From: a virus
Virus record (IMG/VR): IMGVR_UViG_3300042350_006130
Location: 1-29,387 of that record
Length of the DNA stretch: 29,387 nucleotides
Direction: 5' to 3' (one strand)
Part shown: in pieces, positions 5,828 through 29,193 of the stretch
How the letters are laid out: the number at the start of each line of letters is the position of its first letter
How positions within the stretch are numbered: position 1 is the stretch's first letter
The notes under the pieces: model-generated
What the model was told of the DNA's origin: nothing
Seen by the model: the letters and a program-made list of their open reading frames with translations, nothing else
The model's database searches: none
Translations under genes and position numbers: made by a program

Positions 5828-9869
<4,042 letters not shown>

Positions 9870-9880
<11 letters not shown>

Positions 9881-17532: not shown

Positions 17533-18236
17533 TGTTGGAACAATTCTGAAACTTTGTCTCGCTCGTTCGGGCCAGCATTGTCGTTTGGACTATTGCCAGA
17601 AGCAGCACCAGACCTAGCCTGTGGTTGGTCTGAATAGTCGATTTTTGGTAAAACGGAAGCAAACACAAAAGGGTTCCTGTCTTCAACTAAAGTCATTGAA
17701 ACGTCAGCCTGCGTTGCAGCATTACTAAGATTCCTATAAACAACATCAATAGAAAGATCAGTCATTCGAAAAGCCGCAAACTTGGCGACTCTGCCACCCT
17801 GACGAATTTCCCCCGTTGGAGCAATAGGACGAGACAAAAAAGCATCCATCTGCGAAACCAAAATGCGACCCGGAAAAAGAGCCATTTGACGCAGTTTGTC
17901 CAACTGCCCCTCAATCGAACTCAAACCGCCACTACCACCCCATTCACCATTCGGTTTAAAGTTCAACGGGTCAGCAACCCGAAACTGCAAAGAAACTTGC
18001 ATCAACTGATTAGCAGACCTATCCAAAATCGGATACTGTCCCGGACGCTCAATTTCAGCATAAGTTCCAGCAAGACGAGAATACGAAACTTCCCGAGGCG
18101 CATACGGAAACGTAAATGTCAAAGTTCCAAACGGACCGGTGTGCAAAATTTGCGGCCTAACCCGAGAACGCGTCTTTTGACTCCAACCATAAAAATAGTC
18201 GTTCCATTTGGCGTAAGGAATTTTTGCTACCGGCAT
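17529..18236 (-). CDS. Tail hub connector after tape measure, 235 aa
   Basis: The gene directly follows the tape measure, with the ATG sharing one base with its TAA. The N-terminal half contains FTFPYAPREVSYSRLAGTYA followed by ERPGQYPILDRSANQ, a pattern known from the tail protein that precedes gpD-like hubs in myophages and contractile injection systems (XkdP/gp53-like connectors, often with a LysM domain). No LysM repeat is visible; the C-terminus is low-complexity and polar. The likely role is to join tube end and hub. Exact family is uncertain. Confidence 0.6.
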   Translation of the reverse strand: MPVAKIPYAKWNDYFYGWSQKTRSRVRPQILHTGPFGTLTFTFPYAPREVSYSRLAGTYAEIERPGQYPILDRSANQLMQVSLQFRVADPLNFKPNGEWGGSGGLSSIEGQLDKLRQMALFPGRILVSQMDAFLSRPIAPTGEIRQGGRVAKFAAFRMTDLSIDVVYRNLSNAATQADVSMTLVEDRNPFVFASVLPKIDYSDQPQARSGAASGNSPNDNAGPNERDKVSELFQQ

Positions 18237-21200
18237 TATGCCCGTTCCTTCATGTTGCGATCACGGTCATCAATTTTTGCCATAACAGCAGCAGCAATAG
18301 CGTTCGGGTCCTGTCCTTGCGCTGCGTTAATCGTAATGTTGTAAGCGGTAGAAGAACCGCCTCCACCGCCTGAAACCATAACTGCGGCAGGTGTCATTGT
18401 GTCACCCATCGGTGTTGCTCCCGGAACAACATGAAGGTGCCGGTCAAAACCTGAACCGTGGAACTCTGCGAATCCACCGGACTGGTTCACAAGGTTTGAG
18501 TATCCGACAAGGTTTTGACCTGTTAGGTCGTATGCGTTGCCTGTCAGGTGATCCGAGTTTAGGGACCCAAGATTCGTGTTCCGTAGGGACGATGTGACCA
18601 TTCGTTTGCCGGGGAGCATTGAGTTGTAAAAATTGTGACGTCCCATTGTGCGGGCAAGGCGACTCGTTGGGGTGTCTTGGGGCGTACTTGGATCGTCATC
18701 GTTATCAATCGAGCCGTCATCATTAAGTTTGACACCGTATACTGCCGGTTTTTCATTCCACCAACTAGGCTTCCCGCTCCACCACTCCGGAGGATCTTCC
18801 ATGACCGAGTTGAACCCCTGCCTAAGCGCTTCGGCAATTCTTTTCTGCTCATCGGAAAACTCGGCTTCCCTGTCTGTGGTAACCTCATCAAATCCTGGTG
18901 TAACGCCCATCAGTCCTAAGTCTTCAAGAAAAGTGCTTAGTGCTCTTTTCGCTGCCCAAGGTTCATCGTCAATTCCTAATGCCCCCAGACTTCTGCGCTC
19001 ATTTGCAAGGGTCTCTTCAAAAGAAGTTTTTTCTGTATCTGAAAGGGAATTTAACCTTTGGACTATTTGGGCTTGCTGCTCTAACGGCAAAGACGAAATG
19101 GCAGCCTTGGCGCCTTCCGCATCAAATTGCAGACCAGATTTCCCTGCTTCGGTACCACCAACAAAAGCCGTCAAGTTTTCAACAGCCTTTAAGATGCCAC
19201 CTTCCCGCATTCCTTGAATAAGTAGTCCAACGTTGGCAAAAAAGTCTGGACTCATTTCCGAGCCCCGACCCTCAAGTTGTTGACCCGGTTGAAAAGCAAG
19301 GCCCTCTGGACTTCCATAAACTTTTTCAACTTTTAATGCCTGTCCAAAAGGATCATCAGGATTTATAGATAGCGCCTGCTGGCCAATTAAAGAAACGTAA
19401 TTTAACATATCCTTTTCGCTTGAAAACTTTCCATTGTTTTGATAAACCTCTTCAGTCGCCTGATCTAAAGCCTCCTGTGCCTCCAACACTTTGATTCTTT
19501 CACCAAAAAGGCTTTCAATATTCTCAAGCATTTGCCCTCGCATGCGCGAATTTGCTTCGTCAACCGTTTCCGCCAACGTAATTCCAAAATCTTTAAGCAA
19601 CACAGAGGCATCCTGAGTTGATTTTGTTAAATCAACCCCCAAAGTTGCAGCCAAAGATTTAATTTCAGGTTCTGTTTTCCCCGTAGCCTTTTTAAGAAAA
19701 TTCACATTAGTTTGATAATTTTCACCAAGAGCACGTGCAACAATTTCGTTTTGTTCAACCGTTTCTTCAAGACCGTCTAAATAGTTTCTTATTGCATCCT
19801 CTGCCGCAACATTATTTGCCGCAATCGAATCAAGAACCTCAATTTCTGCTCCAGTCAATAGGCCCGATTCTTTTGCCGCAGCAATGCGATCTTGAATAAT
19901 TAACTCCCTACCGGCATCTTTCACGCGCTGCGAGGCGCTTTCTCCGGCCCCATCGCCTAACCCATAATGCTCATAGTAACGGTCTCGCTCCTCCTCCATT
20001 GTTGTTGAAGCATAAATTGATCGCATTGCATCTTCGGCTCGCCTAAGGTTATTTCTTTCTTGCTTCAATTGGTTTTCAAGGCCGGTCAAACCTGATAAAC
20101 CCAGTCGACGGCCAGTTCTCTCCGCCCCGTAGATACCGCTCGATACGCCACGTTCACGATTTTCTCTCTCTACAAGATTCCCCTTGTTGATGCTGCCAGC
20201 AATGGCTCCACTGATTGTTCCGACGGCAGCACCAATAGCGGTACCGACACCGGGAGCGATCATTGTTCCAATCGCTGCACCCGCAGCAGCGCCAGAAATC
20301 GCACCACCGGCAGCGGTTTCAGCAGTCAAAGCAGTACCAGCCGCAGAAATACCCAAACCCAGCAGCGGGTTATACATTGAAACCATGCCGCCAGCCATCT
20401 GGAACGGTGCAGCCGCCTCATTGCCGCTGGTTAGCATCATCGCTTGCGCCCCAAGGGCACCAATGCCCGGACCGTAACGGCCAGCCATCGGTTTAATTCG
20501 ACCCATCATCCCACCTAAACCTTTTCGACCAACATTGCCGGTCATCAAAAGTTCATCTTGGAAAGGGCCTTTCACTGGCGAATCGGGACCATAAGTTTGT
20601 GAAATGGCATACGCAGGCATTTGGGTTGCGCTAGAAAAAAGCGAAGGTTGGTTTGGATTGCCTTTTCCGCCTCTGCCCCTACCGCCACCACCAGAAATAG
20701 GTCCGTTCACATAAACGGTGGTTGCGCGAACCGTCATGTTTTGCATGGTTTGACCAGCGTCTGTTCCCGGAGCGCCGGGAGTGGGTCCTCCAAACACATT
20801 ATTGCCAAAGCGGCGGTAGGGTTTGTTTCCAGTTTCGTCAAATTTGGTTTCAGTTCCGTTCAAAACGGTTGCCGCTTTACTTTTCAACCCGTCAGCAAGA
20901 TCCTTTCCGGCTTTAGTTGTGTCAAAAAGGGTTGCCGCCCCACGCCCCAACCTGCCACCGACACGATCTTTACCCGTACGACCCATCCTCGCATTTAAAG
21001 CACTAAGACCACCCCCCACACCTAAAACGGCACCCAAACCAAGAAGTCCACCTAATGCCGAGTTGCCGCGCGAAATAGCGGCCAAGCCCTCCAAACCTTT
21101 AGCGATCACGTCAATAATGGAGGCAAAAGCATTGAACAATCCGTTAATGATCGGCAAGTTGGCACTAATAAAGTTTTTAAATTGACCGAACAAGTTCAGA

Positions 21201-22669
21201 ATGGAGTCAACAACATTTGTTAACGTCTCACCCCATTCACGCCACTGATCTTGATCTTCAAGGGCTAAGTTCGCTGTGTAGTTCAGTCCGTCACCCAAAC
21301 CTTTAAACAACGCAATGATTGGCGGACCGAAAGTGTCCGTAACAACACGAGCCGCATCACTTAAACCTAAAAGTGATTTTTTGAAATCGTCAAAAAAGTT
21401 TTTGACTTCCCTAAACGCTGTTTTGATCCCACCCATCATCCCTTCGGACTGAGGCAAATATTTTCCGAAAAGGTCAGCGAAAAGATCTGCAGCCTTACCA
21501 ATAACATCAACAATGTCCTGAATCATGTTGCCCATATCGAAAGCAAGCATGTCGCCAGAAATGCGGGCAAAAGTTACACGAAAAATTCTGGTTAGTTTGT
21601 CAAACGCCACTTTCACATCAGGTAAAAACGCCTGACCCAAATCAGCAAACATGCTGACCACAGAAGTAAAAAACGCTTTAGCCCGACCAATCAACGTGTC
21701 GTTAACCGCATCCAAAGAACCTGCGATCCCGGCAGTTTCGGCAAAAGTTCCAGAGGAAAACGCTTTCATCAACTCGGAAGCACCAGTCAAACCCATTTTC
21801 TGGGCATTCTCAATTGCTTTCTGAAATTGCGGGCCAACAGCCCCAGCAGCCTGAGCAACCTCAGCAGTAAGTTTCCCTTCCTTCTGCAACAAACCTAAAA
21901 ATTCGCCAGCCGCAGCCAAATTCTTCCCAATGTCCCCACCCGCAGCAACAGCAAAATCGCCAAGCCCTTTCAGAGCCCCTTTCAAAGGTGCCGTAACCTC
22001 AGTGTTTTTAGAAATCGACGCAAAAGTTTGATTAAGTGCTTCCATCCCAAAAGAAGCCAACTTCGTATCAGACGTCAACATCCGCATAGCGGACATCGCC
22101 TGAGCAGTACCATTACCCAAACCCGGAGCACTTTTATACTGAAACTGAACCATCGCAGCGTTGTACTCACGTTGAGCAGCAGCAACAGTAGCAAGCGCAG
22201 CCGTCGCCGCTGCAGCCAACGCCGCCGTACCGGACATCATCCAGTTAAAAGCCTTCATGGTTGCTCTTCCAACAGCCAAAAGGCCGTTAACTGAAGAAAG
22301 GGCAGCCGCCATCAAACCAAACTCAAGTACCGTGCCCAAAAGAGCAAACTTCAAACCCTTTGAAAGCATCGAAGTGACACCGCCCACAACTTTGCGATGC
22401 ATCTCAAACATTCGGCTTGTCTGATTCACTTTTTTGGACAGGCGGTCAGAATCCCGATTCGCCCCCCTCATCGACTTACTTAACTTATCAGTCGACCGAG
22501 AAGCGTCAGTGCTGGCGCCAGAAAGATCAGTTAACTTGTCGGACGCCCCACCCAAATTGCCGTCAGCAAGTTTTGCCTGAGACGACAAAGCAGCCAACTT
22601 TGCCTGAACACGATCAATGGCACTCGTGTCAGCATTTACCTCAATACGTATGACAACGCGCTCATCCAT
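18236..22669 (-). CDS. Tape measure protein with C-terminal M15-like peptidase
   Basis: At 1477 aa this is the longest gene. Residues 1-95 are coiled coil, followed by hydrophobic helices at about 95-165. A central alpha-helical rod carries phage tape-measure features. A glycine-zipper membrane-like run lies at about 775-830 (GAAAGAAIGTMIAPGVGTAI). Near 1372-1380 is SDHLTGNAYD and near 1410 HLHV, the SxHxxGxAxD and HxH zinc-ligand patterns of VanY/M15 D,D-peptidases, with GFAEFHG between. The protein sets tail length, forms a conduit in the host membrane, and the embedded peptidase should trim cross-links. Starts with AGGA upstream of ATG; chaperones precede it. Confidence 0.92.
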   Translation of the reverse strand: MDERVVIRIEVNADTSAIDRVQAKLAALSSQAKLADGNLGGASDKLTDLSGASTDASRSTDKLSKSMRGANRDSDRLSKKVNQTSRMFEMHRKVVGGVTSMLSKGLKFALLGTVLEFGLMAAALSSVNGLLAVGRATMKAFNWMMSGTAALAAAATAALATVAAAQREYNAAMVQFQYKSAPGLGNGTAQAMSAMRMLTSDTKLASFGMEALNQTFASISKNTEVTAPLKGALKGLGDFAVAAGGDIGKNLAAAGEFLGLLQKEGKLTAEVAQAAGAVGPQFQKAIENAQKMGLTGASELMKAFSSGTFAETAGIAGSLDAVNDTLIGRAKAFFTSVVSMFADLGQAFLPDVKVAFDKLTRIFRVTFARISGDMLAFDMGNMIQDIVDVIGKAADLFADLFGKYLPQSEGMMGGIKTAFREVKNFFDDFKKSLLGLSDAARVVTDTFGPPIIALFKGLGDGLNYTANLALEDQDQWREWGETLTNVVDSILNLFGQFKNFISANLPIINGLFNAFASIIDVIAKGLEGLAAISRGNSALGGLLGLGAVLGVGGGLSALNARMGRTGKDRVGGRLGRGAATLFDTTKAGKDLADGLKSKAATVLNGTETKFDETGNKPYRRFGNNVFGGPTPGAPGTDAGQTMQNMTVRATTVYVNGPISGGGGRGRGGKGNPNQPSLFSSATQMPAYAISQTYGPDSPVKGPFQDELLMTGNVGRKGLGGMMGRIKPMAGRYGPGIGALGAQAMMLTSGNEAAAPFQMAGGMVSMYNPLLGLGISAAGTALTAETAAGGAISGAAAGAAIGTMIAPGVGTAIGAAVGTISGAIAGSINKGNLVERENRERGVSSGIYGAERTGRRLGLSGLTGLENQLKQERNNLRRAEDAMRSIYASTTMEEERDRYYEHYGLGDGAGESASQRVKDAGRELIIQDRIAAAKESGLLTGAEIEVLDSIAANNVAAEDAIRNYLDGLEETVEQNEIVARALGENYQTNVNFLKKATGKTEPEIKSLAATLGVDLTKSTQDASVLLKDFGITLAETVDEANSRMRGQMLENIESLFGERIKVLEAQEALDQATEEVYQNNGKFSSEKDMLNYVSLIGQQALSINPDDPFGQALKVEKVYGSPEGLAFQPGQQLEGRGSEMSPDFFANVGLLIQGMREGGILKAVENLTAFVGGTEAGKSGLQFDAEGAKAAISSLPLEQQAQIVQRLNSLSDTEKTSFEETLANERRSLGALGIDDEPWAAKRALSTFLEDLGLMGVTPGFDEVTTDREAEFSDEQKRIAEALRQGFNSVMEDPPEWWSGKPSWWNEKPAVYGVKLNDDGSIDNDDDPSTPQDTPTSRLARTMGRHNFYNSMLPGKRMVTSSLRNTNLGSLNSDHLTGNAYDLTGQNLVGYSNLVNQSGGFAEFHGSGFDRHLHVVPGATPMGDTMTPAAVMVSGGGGGSSTAYNITINAAQGQDPNAIAAAVMAKIDDRDRNMKERA

Positions 22670-22713: not shown

Positions 22714-22923
22714 TCAGCCCCTGCGACGCTCCATCTCTTCCTGCTGGGCTTTACGGTCCCGATTAATCACCTGAGCGCAGGCCAAACGAATCAGCCAGTC
22801 ATCATCAGAACAATCCAAAATGACCAAAGGGTCAGTGCCAAACAACTCGCCAAGGCGAGCAGCGGTCTTAATGCGAGCGTCGTCGACTAATTCGTCTACG
22901 ACTCCGTCGTAGGGTCCACCGTC
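22714..22923 (-). CDS. Tail assembly chaperone T frame (reached by -1 frameshift)
   Basis: A frame without its own ATG, GTG or TTG near the 5' end runs from the TGA at 22926-22924 to TGA at 22716-22714. It encodes about 65 residues downstream of the slip: VDDARIKTAARLGELFGTD, PLVILDCSDDDWLIRLACAQ and a charged end QQEEMERRRG, the usual composition of a T-type chaperone tail. It lies in the -1 frame of the upstream chaperone and just before the tape measure. I infer a G-T fusion of about 240 aa, as in lambda G/GT and most long-tailed phages. The two chaperone forms coat the tape measure during tail assembly. Confidence 0.75.
   Translation of the reverse strand, partial: DGGPYDGVVDELVDDARIKTAARLGELFGTDPLVILDCSDDDWLIRLACAQVINRDRKAQQEEMERRRG
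22896..22923 (-). promoter_or_regulatory. Programmed -1 frameshift window
   Basis: The slip must fall between the last -1-frame stop (22926-22924) and the zero-frame TAG (22898-22896). The window holds GTG GAC CCT ACG ACG GAG TCG. No standard X XXY YYZ heptamer is present; GGACCCT at 22917-22911 is the best candidate because the Pro tRNA can re-pair from CCT to CCC. Confidence 0.5.
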
Positions 22924-23435
22924 TCAACATCATCACCGTAACCGGCAGCCTCCATAATCGTAAGGGCTGCCGCTTCGACGTGCGGATCAAGTCCAAAAAA
23001 CGCCTGAATGCAATCAGGGATAGGACGAGTCGTTCCAGTCATGTCAAGAATGTCCTGCGAAGCAAAAGAAAGAGAATGGCCAGCCTCAGCCAAAACCTCT
23101 TCAGTGCCCATGTAAATACCAGTCGTGGTATGACCAATGACATAACAAGCAAACTTCGTCGGATCAAAACCGGGCTTTGTGCCTTCACCGGCATTCTTGC
23201 GCCACGCCCGCATCTGATGCTGCGTGATGTTGGGGCTCACCTCAATAGCAAGACCCGGACGCTCAGGAACTTCAATAAGGATGCGTGGCCGCTCCACCTT
23301 CTTCGCAAGTTGCTCACGAAGACGGTCAAGGACACTAACCTCAGTTTCGTCCTTCTTTGCCTTCCCGCCTGAAGCGTCCTTGGACGTCTCAGTGTTCAAT
23401 TCTGAAGTTGTGCTGAAATCGTAAGTGTCGCTCAT
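22896..23435 (-). CDS. Tail assembly chaperone G
   Basis: I choose the ATG at 23435 (MSDTYDF); a TTG start 9 nt upstream is possible. The 179-aa protein has an acidic, disordered N-terminus (to about 35), then RPRILIEVPERPGLAIEVSP, HQMRAWRKNAGEG and a C-terminal helical half with DPHVEAAALTIMEAAGYG. Its place between tail tube and tape measure, and a following -1 frame that lacks a start, identify it as the G-type chaperone. It is made in excess over the G-T fusion. The closing VDPTTES is the region of slippage. Confidence 0.78.
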   Translation of the reverse strand: MSDTYDFSTTSELNTETSKDASGGKAKKDETEVSVLDRLREQLAKKVERPRILIEVPERPGLAIEVSPNITQHQMRAWRKNAGEGTKPGFDPTKFACYVIGHTTTGIYMGTEEVLAEAGHSLSFASQDILDMTGTTRPIPDCIQAFFGLDPHVEAAALTIMEAAGYGDDVETVDPTTES

Positions 23436-23470
23436 GCCCGCCAACTTAGCACCAACGAGTGCCCAAACGC

Positions 23471-23503
23471 GACAAAAGGACGTTAAAAAAACGCCCTTTT
23501 GTC
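23471..23503 (-). terminator. Hairpin between tail tube and chaperone genes
   Basis: GACAAAAGG (23471-23479) pairs with CCTTTTGTC (23495-23503), with an inner CGTT/AACG pairing and an A/T-rich loop. On the minus strand the downstream bases are GCGTTTGG, so there is no proper T-tract. It probably attenuates read-through after the highly expressed sheath and tube genes. Confidence 0.55.
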
Positions 23504-23516
23504 AAATGTTTGTAAA

Positions 23517-23984
23517 TTAGGCTTGGGTCTGGCCCGAAACCTGAGAAATTGAGAACGTCAGCGAAAAAGTTGCTGGCGCCCCAGACGACGAATCGCCCTC
23601 AGGCTCGGACACGCCCACCAGAAGGGCTTGGGCGTAGGAACGCTCAGTCCCAAACTCAACCAAATCGCAGTTAAGTGAAAAGACCGTAACGTCGTAGCGG
23701 AGACGCCCAACACCCTGACGCACCAACTTCAGAGACTCGTGGTCACGGCGAGCATCACCACGGTCGAAATGGCGGGTAAGCGTGATGTCCCCAATCTCGG
23801 GCGGTGCACACAGAACCTCAGGGAAAGTGGAACCCCCGTCGTACACCTTCTCAACACTCGCGGTGATCTCTCCACCCGAAACCTGAGCAAAATACCCGGG
23901 AAACTCGGGGCCAGAAGTGCCACCAGCAACAAGAGGCTTGATGCTGGCGACAATCTGCCGCTGTGCAAGTTTATTGCTTGACAT
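23517..23984 (-). CDS. Major tail tube protein
   Basis: The 155-aa protein directly follows the sheath gene, the standard position of the myovirus tube gene. It is rich in beta strands and matches a tube-like layout: a short N-terminal arm (NKLAQRQIVASI), a strand with SGGEITASVEKVYDGG, an insertion loop (FPEVLCAPPEIGD) and strands ITLTRHFDRGD, RYDVTVFSL and TFSLTFSISQVSG. Stacked hexamers of this fold form the inner tube pushed through the host envelope. The adjoining hairpin may set its high dosage. Confidence 0.85.
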   Translation of the reverse strand: MSSNKLAQRQIVASIKPLVAGGTSGPEFPGYFAQVSGGEITASVEKVYDGGSTFPEVLCAPPEIGDITLTRHFDRGDARRDHESLKLVRQGVGRLRYDVTVFSLNCDLVEFGTERSYAQALLVGVSEPEGDSSSGAPATFSLTFSISQVSGQTQA

Positions 23985-23995
23985 TATTCCTCCGC

Positions 23996-25438
23996 TCAGA
24001 CAACTGAACTCGTGAGATTGGACTTGACAATTTCGATCTCAATGCGATCGGAAACACTCGATACCCTTACGCCGACCTTGGCCCGAATCACACCGTTGGC
24101 CAACTGGCTCAGCGGGTTCAGAGCGTCAGAAACCTCAACTGAGTACCCGGCGTCAAGACGGTTGCCCTCAGTGTCGAAAGCCTCAAACAGGCCGCCGGAG
24201 GTGCGAAGCGGATCAAGCAGAGCAATAAGCCGTGCTTCCACCTGCCCGAAAACGCTGCGACGCCCATCAATCGGAGAGAACACAAGGTCCTCAAGACGCT
24301 GCTCAGCCTGCGACACGATGTAGTTCAGCGTGTCACGAGTCGTAATGTACCGGAAGTTGGTTTCGTCATCAGACCCGGAACGGGCACCGTAGATGCGGAC
24401 AGAACCCTGAATGATCCGAATCGCATTGATTCGTGCATCGTCAAGTTCTTCACCGGTCGTCTTGGGAACCGAAGTTGCAAGACCAGTGACGAAACGTGCC
24501 CGGGAGGGAAGCCCTGCACCCGGCTGCCACGGCCCAACAGTGTTATGGGCAATGGAGCGCTTAGCGGCAGCGTAAGCCTCGGGGGAAACCGTCAATGAAG
24601 TTCCGCCCGGACCCGGAATCGTGACATGCGGGAAGTAGTACGCAGCGTACTCACCGTTCTCGGTCACGTAACCCTCAACAGTGTCGATGGCATCGCTTGC
24701 CGTATCACCTGAAGCGAAACCAAGAACCGCAATCCGGTTGTTCGCCTGAGCGTGATCGATAAGGCCATCCCAGATCGTTGAAGACGAATAGCCGGGAATG
24801 GCGACAGCGCCAGCACCCAAAGCATTGTCAAACAACTCAAGGGCATCGACAAGTTCGGCTTCTGTTGGAACTGACGTTGAACCAGCCGAGAGGGCAGTTG
24901 GGCCACTGTCAGTGAGAACCGTTTCGCCTTCACCAGTCTCCGTGGATGCCGTTACAAAGAAAGCCGCCACGCTGGAGCCGTTAATTGCAGCAACAGCGTC
25001 GTCCACGGTTGCCACGAAACCGCTCGTGTAGACCAATTCGTCTTTCAGGATCAGTCGAACTGCAAACTTCAACGCAGCATTTGCCACAATCTCAACTTCA
25101 AGTTCTGTCGACCATGAGCCGGGTGTTGCGGCGTCGATCCGAAGAGCGCTCTCCACAACAAGGAAGCCTGAAGTGGGAGCAACGCTTGCACCAACCGCAC
25201 GGCTCACGTAGGCGCGAGCGCCACCCTCTTCAAAATAGGTTTGAACCTGCTGATAAAGAGTTTTGGATGCTTCGTAGTCACCGTAAATTGCCTCAAAGTC
25301 AAGGAGACTGGTAACAAGGCGAGCCTCGTCAATCGGCCCACGCTCGGCGGTGCCTGCTACAAAAAAAGTAGACGCTGGTGCAGTGTTCGCCGTTGATGGT
25401 CCGGTTCGAACTGCGGTTGTTACAACTACGCCGGGCAT
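23996..25438 (-). CDS. Tail sheath protein
   Basis: The 480-aa product has the sheath order: N-terminal MPGVVVTTAVRTGPSTANTA, FVAGTAERGP near 26-35, then YFEEGGARAYVSRAVG near 68-83, a variable middle domain, and a conserved C-terminal domain with RDTLNYIVSQAEQRLEDLVF, NPLSQLANGVIRAKVGVRV and a long final strand DRIEIEIVKS. These features, in this order, are diagnostic for contractile tail sheaths. AGGAGG lies about 6 nt before the ATG. A 125-nt gap upstream contains short repeats and may carry a promoter. Confidence 0.95.
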   Translation of the reverse strand: MPGVVVTTAVRTGPSTANTAPASTFFVAGTAERGPIDEARLVTSLLDFEAIYGDYEASKTLYQQVQTYFEEGGARAYVSRAVGASVAPTSGFLVVESALRIDAATPGSWSTELEVEIVANAALKFAVRLILKDELVYTSGFVATVDDAVAAINGSSVAAFFVTASTETGEGETVLTDSGPTALSAGSTSVPTEAELVDALELFDNALGAGAVAIPGYSSSTIWDGLIDHAQANNRIAVLGFASGDTASDAIDTVEGYVTENGEYAAYYFPHVTIPGPGGTSLTVSPEAYAAAKRSIAHNTVGPWQPGAGLPSRARFVTGLATSVPKTTGEELDDARINAIRIIQGSVRIYGARSGSDDETNFRYITTRDTLNYIVSQAEQRLEDLVFSPIDGRRSVFGQVEARLIALLDPLRTSGGLFEAFDTEGNRLDAGYSVEVSDALNPLSQLANGVIRAKVGVRVSSVSDRIEIEIVKSNLTSSVV

Positions 25439-27469: not shown

Positions 27470-28021
27470 TCAACGATCGGCGTTAGGTGGCCGCTCGATG
27501 TTAATCGTTGCAGAAGTCGTACCGGCTGGAGCCTCAATTGGGATCCAAGCCTTGGAGTACACATGATCTTTGACTTTTCGGCTTTTCAAAAGACCGCCAT
27601 CAAAAAGAAGGTCAACTTCATCATTGCTCATGCCCAGCATGCGACCCAAAGTTCGCTGATCGTAAGCACGCGATCGAACAATCTTCTTCAACAAAGAACT
27701 GAGACTCTTGGCATAAAGTTGTCCACGCCCACGATTTAAGCGCACATGCATAATCATTGCTTCAATGTCATCGCAATCAACCCACGTCACGGGCACTAAA
27801 CCTTTGTCCCTTTTAACAATTTCCGGATCGTCGGCAGCGATGAGCCAACGCTCATGTCCATCAATGATGACATTGCCATTGACAGAAGCAATAATTGGGG
27901 AAACCCAACCGTACTTTCGTAATGACTCACTCAAAACCTTTTGATCGGTTTTCAAAATGTAAGTGGAGCGCCAAGTGGCTGGTCGCAAAATTCCACCGGA
28001 AACAGTTTCAAAGTTAAACAT
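27470..28021 (-). CDS. ParB-like nuclease domain protein (IbrB-like)
   Basis: The 183-aa protein has a ParB/sulfiredoxin-like fold pattern: LSESLRKYGWVSPIIASVNG, then VIIDGHERWLIAADDPEIV with the IIDGHER motif, and VPVTWVDCDDIEAMIM, followed by a helical region (SLSSLLKKIVRSRAYDQRTL). AAGG precedes the ATG. It lies 8 nt after the PAPS-reductase-like gene, so both are expressed together. IbrA/IbrB pairs of this type are known in bacteria and phages; biochemical function is not settled. Confidence 0.8.
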   Translation of the reverse strand: MFNFETVSGGILRPATWRSTYILKTDQKVLSESLRKYGWVSPIIASVNGNVIIDGHERWLIAADDPEIVKRDKGLVPVTWVDCDDIEAMIMHVRLNRGRGQLYAKSLSSLLKKIVRSRAYDQRTLGRMLGMSNDEVDLLFDGGLLKSRKVKDHVYSKAWIPIEAPAGTTSATINIERPPNADR

Positions 28022-28029
28022 TTTTGTCC

Positions 28030-29193
28030 TTATCGGTAATCATCGAGTGCGTCTAGTGAGTTTGCATCTGCTTCAGCCTGAGCAGCAGCCATGCGCATGG
28101 CATGCGCTCTAGTTTTCGGACCAACAGGGGTCACGGAAGACAAATTGAATTCGTTGAGCAAAAGATTCCTAATCAGCCATTCAATGGGATAAGAGAAAGG
28201 ATCTTTTTTGTGCTTGGTTCTAAACTCTGCCGAAAATGACATAGCCCTTCTCTTAATTCCGGGAGTGAGCATGTTGTCATCAATACAGTTTTGAACACCT
28301 TGCCAGCCCTCATCAGCATAAGAAGCAATCAAAGTCTCAATATCGAATTCCGGCCACCAGCGCCGTTGGGCATCAATCTGAGGAAAGCACTCAACAAGCC
28401 GATCGTAAAATTCTGGCTCAGTCGCAACGACATCACCAATTCTACGAATCGCCACGGAATGCAAAGGAATTCCAACACGAGTATTAGAACCTGTCATTGC
28501 AGCCAAATCGTAGTATTCGCAAAATTTTCCGCCATGCTCTTCAATGACGAATTTGAAGACGTCGTCCGTGGTCCAGTCGTAAATCACTTTTGCGAAACGG
28601 AGGGGAATTGATTTTTTCATTCGGTAGGGAACCACAATGTAATTTTCGTGAAGTTTTTGCACACACGAGCGGTAACGAATCATTGACTCATTCGCTCGCA
28701 CACCCGTAATGAAAGCAGTTCTCCCCTTTTTACCTTGCATCGTGTAATAGTCAACAGACTGGGGAATCGTTTGATTGGACGGGAGCCCAAAATGTTCTGC
28801 GCGAATTGCCCAAGGGGGAATGTCTCGAACAAGGCGCCCCTTTTTTGCTCTTTTTTCCGACCAAAGCAAAACGTATTCTCGCCTGCCCAAAACCCAAATT
28901 TCGCCACCGGAAGGCAAGCAGTACCATTCCATGTCCACCCAGTCGTAATTTCTGACCTCTTCCATGAAGCGAACGACAGCAGGGGAAACCATTTCCTCGT
29001 CTCGGAAAATGACTTTTACGGGTCCGAGTCCTCGTTCTTCGTGAATTTCTTTTGCTAGGTAAAGAACGGCAGTGGAGTCTTTCCCGCCAGAGAATTGAAC
29101 ACAAACGGTGTCGAAAGTGTCATAGACGTGACGCATTCTTTCGCGAGCCGCATCCACACACGAAATATCTAGGAACATTCTTTGGCGGGTCAT
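28030..29193 (-). CDS. PAPS reductase-like PP-loop protein (IbrA-like)
   Basis: The 387-aa protein has the PP-loop VCVQFSGGKDSTAVLYLA (about 31-48), FRDEEMVSP, and FITGVRANESMIRYRSCV near 160-180. PP-loop enzymes adenylate a substrate at SGGKDS. The family includes PAPS reductase, DndC and IbrA. No CxxC pair of the DndC iron-sulfur type is visible. Its partner, an IbrB-like ParB protein, follows by 8 nt. Start is ATG with AAGGGAAATA upstream. The two may modify nucleotides, DNA or a thiolated product; in E. coli IbrAB affect immunoglobulin-binding protein expression. Confidence 0.82.
   Translation of the reverse strand: MTRQRMFLDISCVDAARERMRHVYDTFDTVCVQFSGGKDSTAVLYLAKEIHEERGLGPVKVIFRDEEMVSPAVVRFMEEVRNYDWVDMEWYCLPSGGEIWVLGRREYVLLWSEKRAKKGRLVRDIPPWAIRAEHFGLPSNQTIPQSVDYYTMQGKKGRTAFITGVRANESMIRYRSCVQKLHENYIVVPYRMKKSIPLRFAKVIYDWTTDDVFKFVIEEHGGKFCEYYDLAAMTGSNTRVGIPLHSVAIRRIGDVVATEPEFYDRLVECFPQIDAQRRWWPEFDIETLIASYADEGWQGVQNCIDDNMLTPGIKRRAMSFSAEFRTKHKKDPFSYPIEWLIRNLLLNEFNLSSVTPVGPKTRAHAMRMAAAQAEADANSLDALDDYR

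Follow-up and report, generated by a model that had tools for sequence, protein, structure and literature searches.

The locus examined here lies in IMGVR_UViG_3300042350_006130, a 29,387-base virus record that was analysed over its whole length (the window). Its tail chaperone gene overlaps a second open stretch in the -1 frame, which is closed off by an upstream stop codon, and the locus thereby raised the question of how ribosomes could enter this second frame at a site without a standard slippery heptamer. The tail genes of the window all lie on the minus strand, in the order sheath, tube, chaperone gene, tape measure, and then more tail genes. The features referred to below are as follows.

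23996..25438, minus strand: tail sheath gene (contractile tail), PHROG_23, E 5e-38
23517..23984, minus strand: tail tube protein gene, upstream of the chaperone gene, PHROG_5102, E 1.6e-26
22896..23435, minus strand: ORF1, tail assembly chaperone (gpG-like), 179 aa, from ATG 23435 to TAG 22898-22896
22911..22917, minus strand: putative slip heptamer G_GAC_CCT, with zero-frame codons GAC (22916-22914) and CCT (22913-22911)
22714..22911, minus strand: -1-frame extension (gpT-like part), from TAC 22911-22909 to TGA 22716-22714
22896..22898, minus strand: zero-frame stop TAG, within the 5' arm of the stem-loop
22879..22902, minus strand: predicted stimulatory stem-loop, nine positions per arm, 6-nt loop, starting 8 nt 3' of CCT
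18236..22669, minus strand: tape measure protein gene, 1477 aa, downstream of the chaperone gene, PHROG_167, E 7.5e-6
15327-13933, minus strand: baseplate wedge match

ORF1 was located between the tube and tape measure genes, as tail assembly chaperones are, and its profile matched PHROG_5088 (tail assembly chaperone; E 1.7e-16). By tblastn, ORF1 matched proteins of Gordonia, Arthrobacter, and Brevibacterium phages, which were labelled tail assembly chaperone in some records and hypothetical in others. When the predicted model of ORF1 (mean pLDDT 76.6) was searched with Foldseek, the top viral match was the tail assembly chaperone of Cantare (E 2.5e-10), and there was no significant match among the solved structures of the PDB (HK97 TAC 2ob9, E 3.6). 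A Pfam search assigned no family to ORF1, and for the second frame it gave a below-cutoff HEAT match and nothing else. We concluded that ORF1 is a tail assembly chaperone. In the surrounding region, a 15-pair hairpin with a 5-nt loop was seen between the tail tube and chaperone genes (23470-23504, minus strand; fold of the surrounding 81 nt, -33.5 kcal/mol), with a possible role in transcript processing or attenuation. A collagen-like (Gly-X-Y) gene of 1350 aa with many repeats (5828-9880, minus strand) probably encodes a tail fibre. Upstream of the tail genes, a phosphoadenosine phosphosulfate reductase-like gene (28030-29193, minus strand; PHROG_2302, E 2.1e-74) adjoined a ParB-like gene (27470-28021, minus strand; PHROG_2159, E 9.8e-30).

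A TGA at 22926-22924 closed the -1 frame, which from 22923 onwards was open, overlapping ORF1 down to TAG 22898-22896 and ending at 22714. The second frame could be reached only via a shift between 22923 and 22896, as the original prediction, made from the window sequence alone, had stated. Its further statements that no X XXY YYZ heptamer is present in 22923-22896 and that Pro CCT to CCC in GGACCCT is the sole cognate re-pairing were also borne out: no in-phase X_XXY_YYZ, the canonical -1 slip site, was found in this interval, and a reading of the sequence gave CCT to CCC as the only full re-pairing within it. Among the 18 listed minus-strand ORFs of the window, in-frame GGACCCT occurred as a single copy, at the slip site. 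The expected fusion product would consist of 175 + 65 = 240 aa, with ...VDP-YDGVVDELVDDAR predicted as the sequence across its junction in the window. ACG, which follows CCT, accounted for 24% of Thr codons in the 18 ORFs and was not rare, so that no hungry codon was evident; a rare A-site codon as the cause of the shift was thus found unlikely.

Relatives were gathered from six viral-contig scans, one genome-contig scan, and 21 annotated phage regions. With the window, the set comprised 313 sequences, many of them repeat fetches of one contig, with ORF1 in 312 and the whole region in 311. Dereplication at <90% nucleotide identity yielded 98 lineages including the window, a number that comes from an ungapped greedy comparison and may be an overcount. 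Three of the viral scans each supplied the best 80, out of at least 568 confirmed relatives in one scan and out of 405 and 404 in the two others, and the family was therefore sampled, not exhausted. Two entries were dropped ahead of the counts: L039, which is cut off where its contig ends, and L045, the record of the window itself, whose fetched copy gave no hit to ORF1. For the column and stem analyses, the 18 cultured-phage lineages were excluded, leaving 80, and subsequently two lineages lacking 130 nt downstream, leaving 78. Three close relatives (L151, L152, and L153) were on contigs titled Phycisphaerae, Gammaproteobacteria, and Actinomycetota metagenome-assembled genomes; these are probably phage contigs binned with bacteria.

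The second frame was the -1 frame in all 98 lineages. At the site, 85 lineages had G_GAC_CCN (G_GAC_CCT in 80, G_GAC_CCG in 4, and G_GAC_CCC in 1), six had A_AAC_CCT, and five had C_CCT_TTR, as C or T_GAC_CCT_TTG in four and A_AGC_CCT_TTA in one. The two exceptions, C_GAC_CCT_ACC in Abba (L053) and T_GAC_CCC_ACG in L138, kept the proline slip and had no left partner. CCC plus one base was the sole element common to the 98 lineages. For each lineage, the permitted shift window was defined as running from the last upstream -1-frame stop to the zero-frame stop. A formal X_XXY_YYZ heptamer was absent from the permitted window in 87 lineages, that is, the window's own and 86 others, and present in 11, as AAACCCT in six and CCCTTTR in five, both using the same CCC. 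These formal heptamers of relatives, as well as the stem-loop at 22902-22879, had not been part of the original prediction. If one homologous site is assumed, the permitted windows of the 98 lineages intersect solely within offsets -1 to +6, counted from base 1 of the Pro codon, bounded on the left by L138 and DalanDe (L051) and on the right by L014, L023, and ArV1 (L049). In the latter three, the zero-frame TAG came one codon after the slip codon (CCT ACG TAG, CCT ACC TAG, and CCT CAC TAG, respectively).

Codon-position variability was computed on 80 and on 78 lineages. Zero-frame third positions had 1.82, 1.24, 1.98, and 1.92 bits at -16, -13, -10, and -7, and 0.48 bits at -4. Third positions of the -1 frame were variable at +7 and +10 (1.52 and 1.66 bits), low at +13 and +16 (0.33 and 0.99 bits), both of which lie within the stem arm, and variable again at +19 to +31 (1.23 to 1.93 bits). 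Around the slip site, the variable third positions cease to be those of the zero frame and become those of the -1 frame.

Downstream of the site, the window could form the stem GTCGTAGAC/GTCGACGAC with the loop GAATTA and one A.G mismatch. In a hairpin search limited to starts from +5 to +19, the best hairpin started 4-8 nt after CCT in 70 of the 98 lineages. Compared with dinucleotide shuffles, the 50 nt from +6 gave a mean z of -2.65, with 46 of 78 lineages below -2, and the control region at +46..+106 gave a mean z of -0.39, with 7 of 78 below -2. The window's own downstream fold was unremarkable against shuffles (z -1.13 to +0.6 in five stretches starting at +0 to +16). Across 77 distinct rows, 79.9% of stem cells were paired versus 72.5% after shuffling, doubly changed cells numbered 55 versus 22.9 +/- 5.5 (none of 500 shuffles reached 55), and the covariation score was 0.276 versus 0.162, in controls that do not remove relatedness. 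Slid versions of the stem had 14-25 doubly changed cells and a covariation score of at most 0.139, a comparison in which the counted structure was named from the window's own fold and a structure taken from one member tends to have an advantage over slid ones. Of the five stem measures, two did not exceed the shuffles, namely pairs with a double change (70/500) and further pair types (211/500); including the ninth pair gave a similar outcome. RNAalifold on the 78-row alignment predicted no pairs and no consensus structure, and the stem therefore rests on folding of each sequence and on counts over a named structure. Unbroken stems of 12 pairs and 11 pairs were present in L148 and L138, respectively, and long stems (score 8 or more) were found in 40 of 98 lineages versus 59 of 588 ORF1 control stretches. 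By the counts and the mean z over relatives, the site has a covarying stem-loop at about the distance (5-9 nt after the heptamer) expected of a 3' stimulatory structure. In view of the RNAalifold result and the unremarkable z of the window, the stem is taken as a putative stimulator of the slip. Two other candidate signals were set aside. An upstream Shine-Dalgarno-like signal of -5 kcal/mol or lower, found in 30 of 98 lineages versus 127 of 784 controls, was weakly above the controls, and such a stimulator was rejected. A conserved pairing of GGAC with GTC at +11..+13, taken from column counts, was dropped on inspection because the AAC lineages would break it.

If Pro-tRNA moved alone, the wobble base before GAC would be free. 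Among the 87 lineages that have GAC without a following TTR, 85 carried G at this base, in codons for Val, Ser, Glu, Leu, Ala, Met, or Thr; the three Met lineages are uninformative because Met has ATG only. Elsewhere in ORF1, G preceded 106 of 493 GAC codons, and 2 of 41 after Val. Before AAC, the base was A in all six AAC lineages. Changes were mapped on a tree of the 98 proteins from which the site was left out; on this quick tree, with 28 of 95 inner branches open and some long branches, the base before GAC changed 8 times, the next two wobble bases upstream 43 and 35 times, and bases 1-2 of the codon preceding GAC 25 times. For A before AAC there were three changes, at least two of them forced by well-supported branches. 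The alignment of related chaperones, which had been proposed as a check of the slip site, thus returned the same site and the same -1 frame in 98 lineages and, in addition, a constraint on the base 5' of GAC. The constrained base before GAC or AAC favours tandem slippage with imperfect re-pairing of Asp-tRNA, and this is the reading that we prefer. The left partner is not indispensable, as Abba and L138 lack it. None of the five TTR lineages, in all of which the formal heptamer lies to the right, had G before the P codon; they sit together on one side of a single tree branch, so that the combination of TTR on the right with a free left base counts as one event.

Of the other explanations, the one that survives best is slippage of Pro-tRNA alone: it would move from C_CCU to CCC while in the P site, the A site over ACG would be vacant, and the Asp codon would have no role. 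The restriction of the universal element to CCC plus one base agrees with it, as do the two lineages without a left partner (L053 and L138) and the C_CCT_TTR lineages, in which CCT is the left half of the formal heptamer and would hence sit in the P site. However, slippage of Pro-tRNA alone leaves the near-invariant G before GAC and A before AAC unexplained. The hairpin start at 4-8 nt after CCT in most lineages is near the heptamer-to-structure spacing of 5-9 nt given in excerpts of a published account (PMC4342338), but with ACG in the A site the spacing would shrink to 1-5 nt, and ACG is not rare in the window. We therefore regard this explanation as improbable.

Much less probable is RNA polymerase slippage or a +2 ribosomal shift. 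Either would reach the same frame, and frame alone cannot separate -1 from +2 or an inserted base. A +2 shift, however, would skip the first -1 codon, which was Tyr (TAC or TAT) in 80 of the 98 lineages, and was found unlikely; for polymerase slippage, three consecutive C make a short run.

Phage annotation bears on a further alternative, independent initiation of the second frame. In 8 of 14 Arthrobacter phage records (L048, L053, L058-L060, and L064-L066), the -1 frame was annotated as a small hypothetical CDS of its own, as such initiation would have it; EastWest (L067) had a separate small CDS in the other frame, and 5 of the 14 had none. None of the 14 Arthrobacter phage records carried a fusion protein or shift annotation. 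Of the 21 records examined, those with an annotated two-piece CDS were all from Gordonia phages (5 of the 6 Gordonia records), the 14 Arthrobacter records and the single Brevibacterium record having none; the join position was not shown in the Gordonia records. The two-piece CDS was not annotated in Hanem (Gordonia; L070) or in Cantare (L052); in both, a small hypothetical protein was annotated separately in the -1 frame, and no frameshift product was annotated. The original prediction that the second frame has no start codon held near the slip, but TTG, GTG, and ATG codons exist further down, the first (TTG) being codon 27 of the open stretch. Against initiation at such codons, 82 of 98 lineages had no ATG, GTG, or TTG in the first 16 codons past the slip, and no start position and codon were common to more than three lineages, yet the -1-frame constraint begins near the slip. 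We consider independent initiation highly improbable. A sequencing or assembly error that joins or splits the frames is refuted, with hardly any probability left to it, by the frame change in 98 lineages and by four contigs of four metagenome datasets (L001-L004) that are identical to the window over slip-30..+60, which argues against such an error. Further loci with the identical stretch were repeat fetches, and no evidence in favour of an error was found. The frame change is real and is neither an assembly error nor chance, and both of the refuting possibilities named with the original prediction, assembly error and independent initiation, were thus made unlikely.

From these comparisons, it is likely that -1 programmed frameshifting at G_GAC_CCU produces two chaperones, a G-like short form of 179 aa and a GT-like long form of 240 aa. 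The central proposal, a tail chaperone with a -1 frameshift at an unusual signal, is supported by the relatives in gene family, frame, and site, at the level of sequence. In the proposed mechanism, a ribosome whose P site holds GAC and whose A site holds CCU would slip back by one base. Pro-tRNA would re-pair well, from CCU to CCC, and Asp-tRNA would move onto GGA, with the first pair (G) kept and a G.U pair and a mismatch tolerated; the codon read after the slip would be UAC. The stem-loop, mostly 4-8 nt downstream (8 nt in the window), would promote the slip. That such slippage occurs in vivo, its rate, and its tandem character are inferred. A wider reading is put forward tentatively. The fixed core may be a Pro-tRNA slip on C_CCN with an interchangeable helper tRNA, either on the left (Asp or Asn, G_GAC or A_AAC) or on the right (Leu, TTR); G_GAC_CCU may be a long-lived functional link between two canonical heptamers, and bacterial ribosomes may use the GGA P-site solution of plant and insect RNA viruses. 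If this reading is true, it would show frameshift sites evolving without loss of function. Tools that search for X_XXY_YYZ only would miss the G_GAC_CCT signal. The phage family offers a natural series, G_GAC_CCT, A_AAC_CCT, G_GAC_CCG, G_GAC_CCC, T_GAC_CCC, and C_CCT_TTR, which allows a direct test of how much each tRNA and the hairpin contribute to -1 slippage by bacterial ribosomes. The finding is of specialist interest.

A -1 frameshift in a tail chaperone gene is of a known kind, and its conservation was reportedly described by Xu, Hendrix and Duda in 2004. As in the G/GT system of phage lambda, the chaperone gene of the window stands ahead of the tape measure gene, the shift lies near the end of ORF1, and the extension is in the -1 frame; the window differs in that its slip site is not an X_XXY_YYZ heptamer. 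For phage lambda, excerpts of PMC5009743 describe a role of the long form at the point where the tail tube begins to form on the tape measure, and the long form of the window may have a similar role. The Gordonia phages ChisanaKitsune, GMA6, UBSmoodge, DalanDe, and ScarletRaider and the Brevibacterium phage Cantare share with the window a homologous protein, the frame, and the CCC core, but with C_CCT_TTR they have a formal heptamer on the right side of this core. For GMA6, a conserved programmed frameshift is mentioned in the portion of PMC4524720 available, which does not give the site. In the literature searched, no account of GGACCCT serving as a slip site in phages was found among the matches listed, with Xu et al. 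2004 outside them; by title, none of the papers with GGACCCU was on frameshifting, and none with GGACCC, slippery, and frameshift was on phages. According to the sections of the PRFect paper available (PMC10885494), most frameshift overlaps in its data lack XXXYYY, and further motifs are proposed; judged by motif names, GGACCCT fits none of its eight -1 motifs, and GGACCCC (L040) would fit 'twoonefour'.

The closest published slip sites found appear to be G_GAU_UUU of the umbraviruses and G_GAU_UUY of the insect-specific flaviviruses. In excerpts of PMC4737148, the slip site of umbravirus PEMV RNA2 is given as G_GAU_UUU, with AAAUUUU in two relatives, and 36 and 40% of frameshifting is left when P-site re-pairing is prevented; the zero-frame stop of PEMV follows GGAUUUU at the same distance as in L014, L023, and ArV1. 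The flavivirus site, G_GAU_UUY, is given in the same excerpts that report the spacing (PMC4342338). As far as these excerpts go, the viral sites resemble that of the window in that GGA occupies the P site once the shift has taken place, re-pairing is perfect in the A site alone, and a structure lies downstream, and the AAAUUUU of two umbravirus relatives parallels AAACCCT in some of the phages here. They differ in belonging to eukaryotic RNA viruses with UUU in the A site, whereas the phage site has CCC and is read by bacterial ribosomes. By its sequence, the site in the window is of the G_GAY_YYN type and would work like those of PEMV and the insect-specific flaviviruses, to which it is not homologous.
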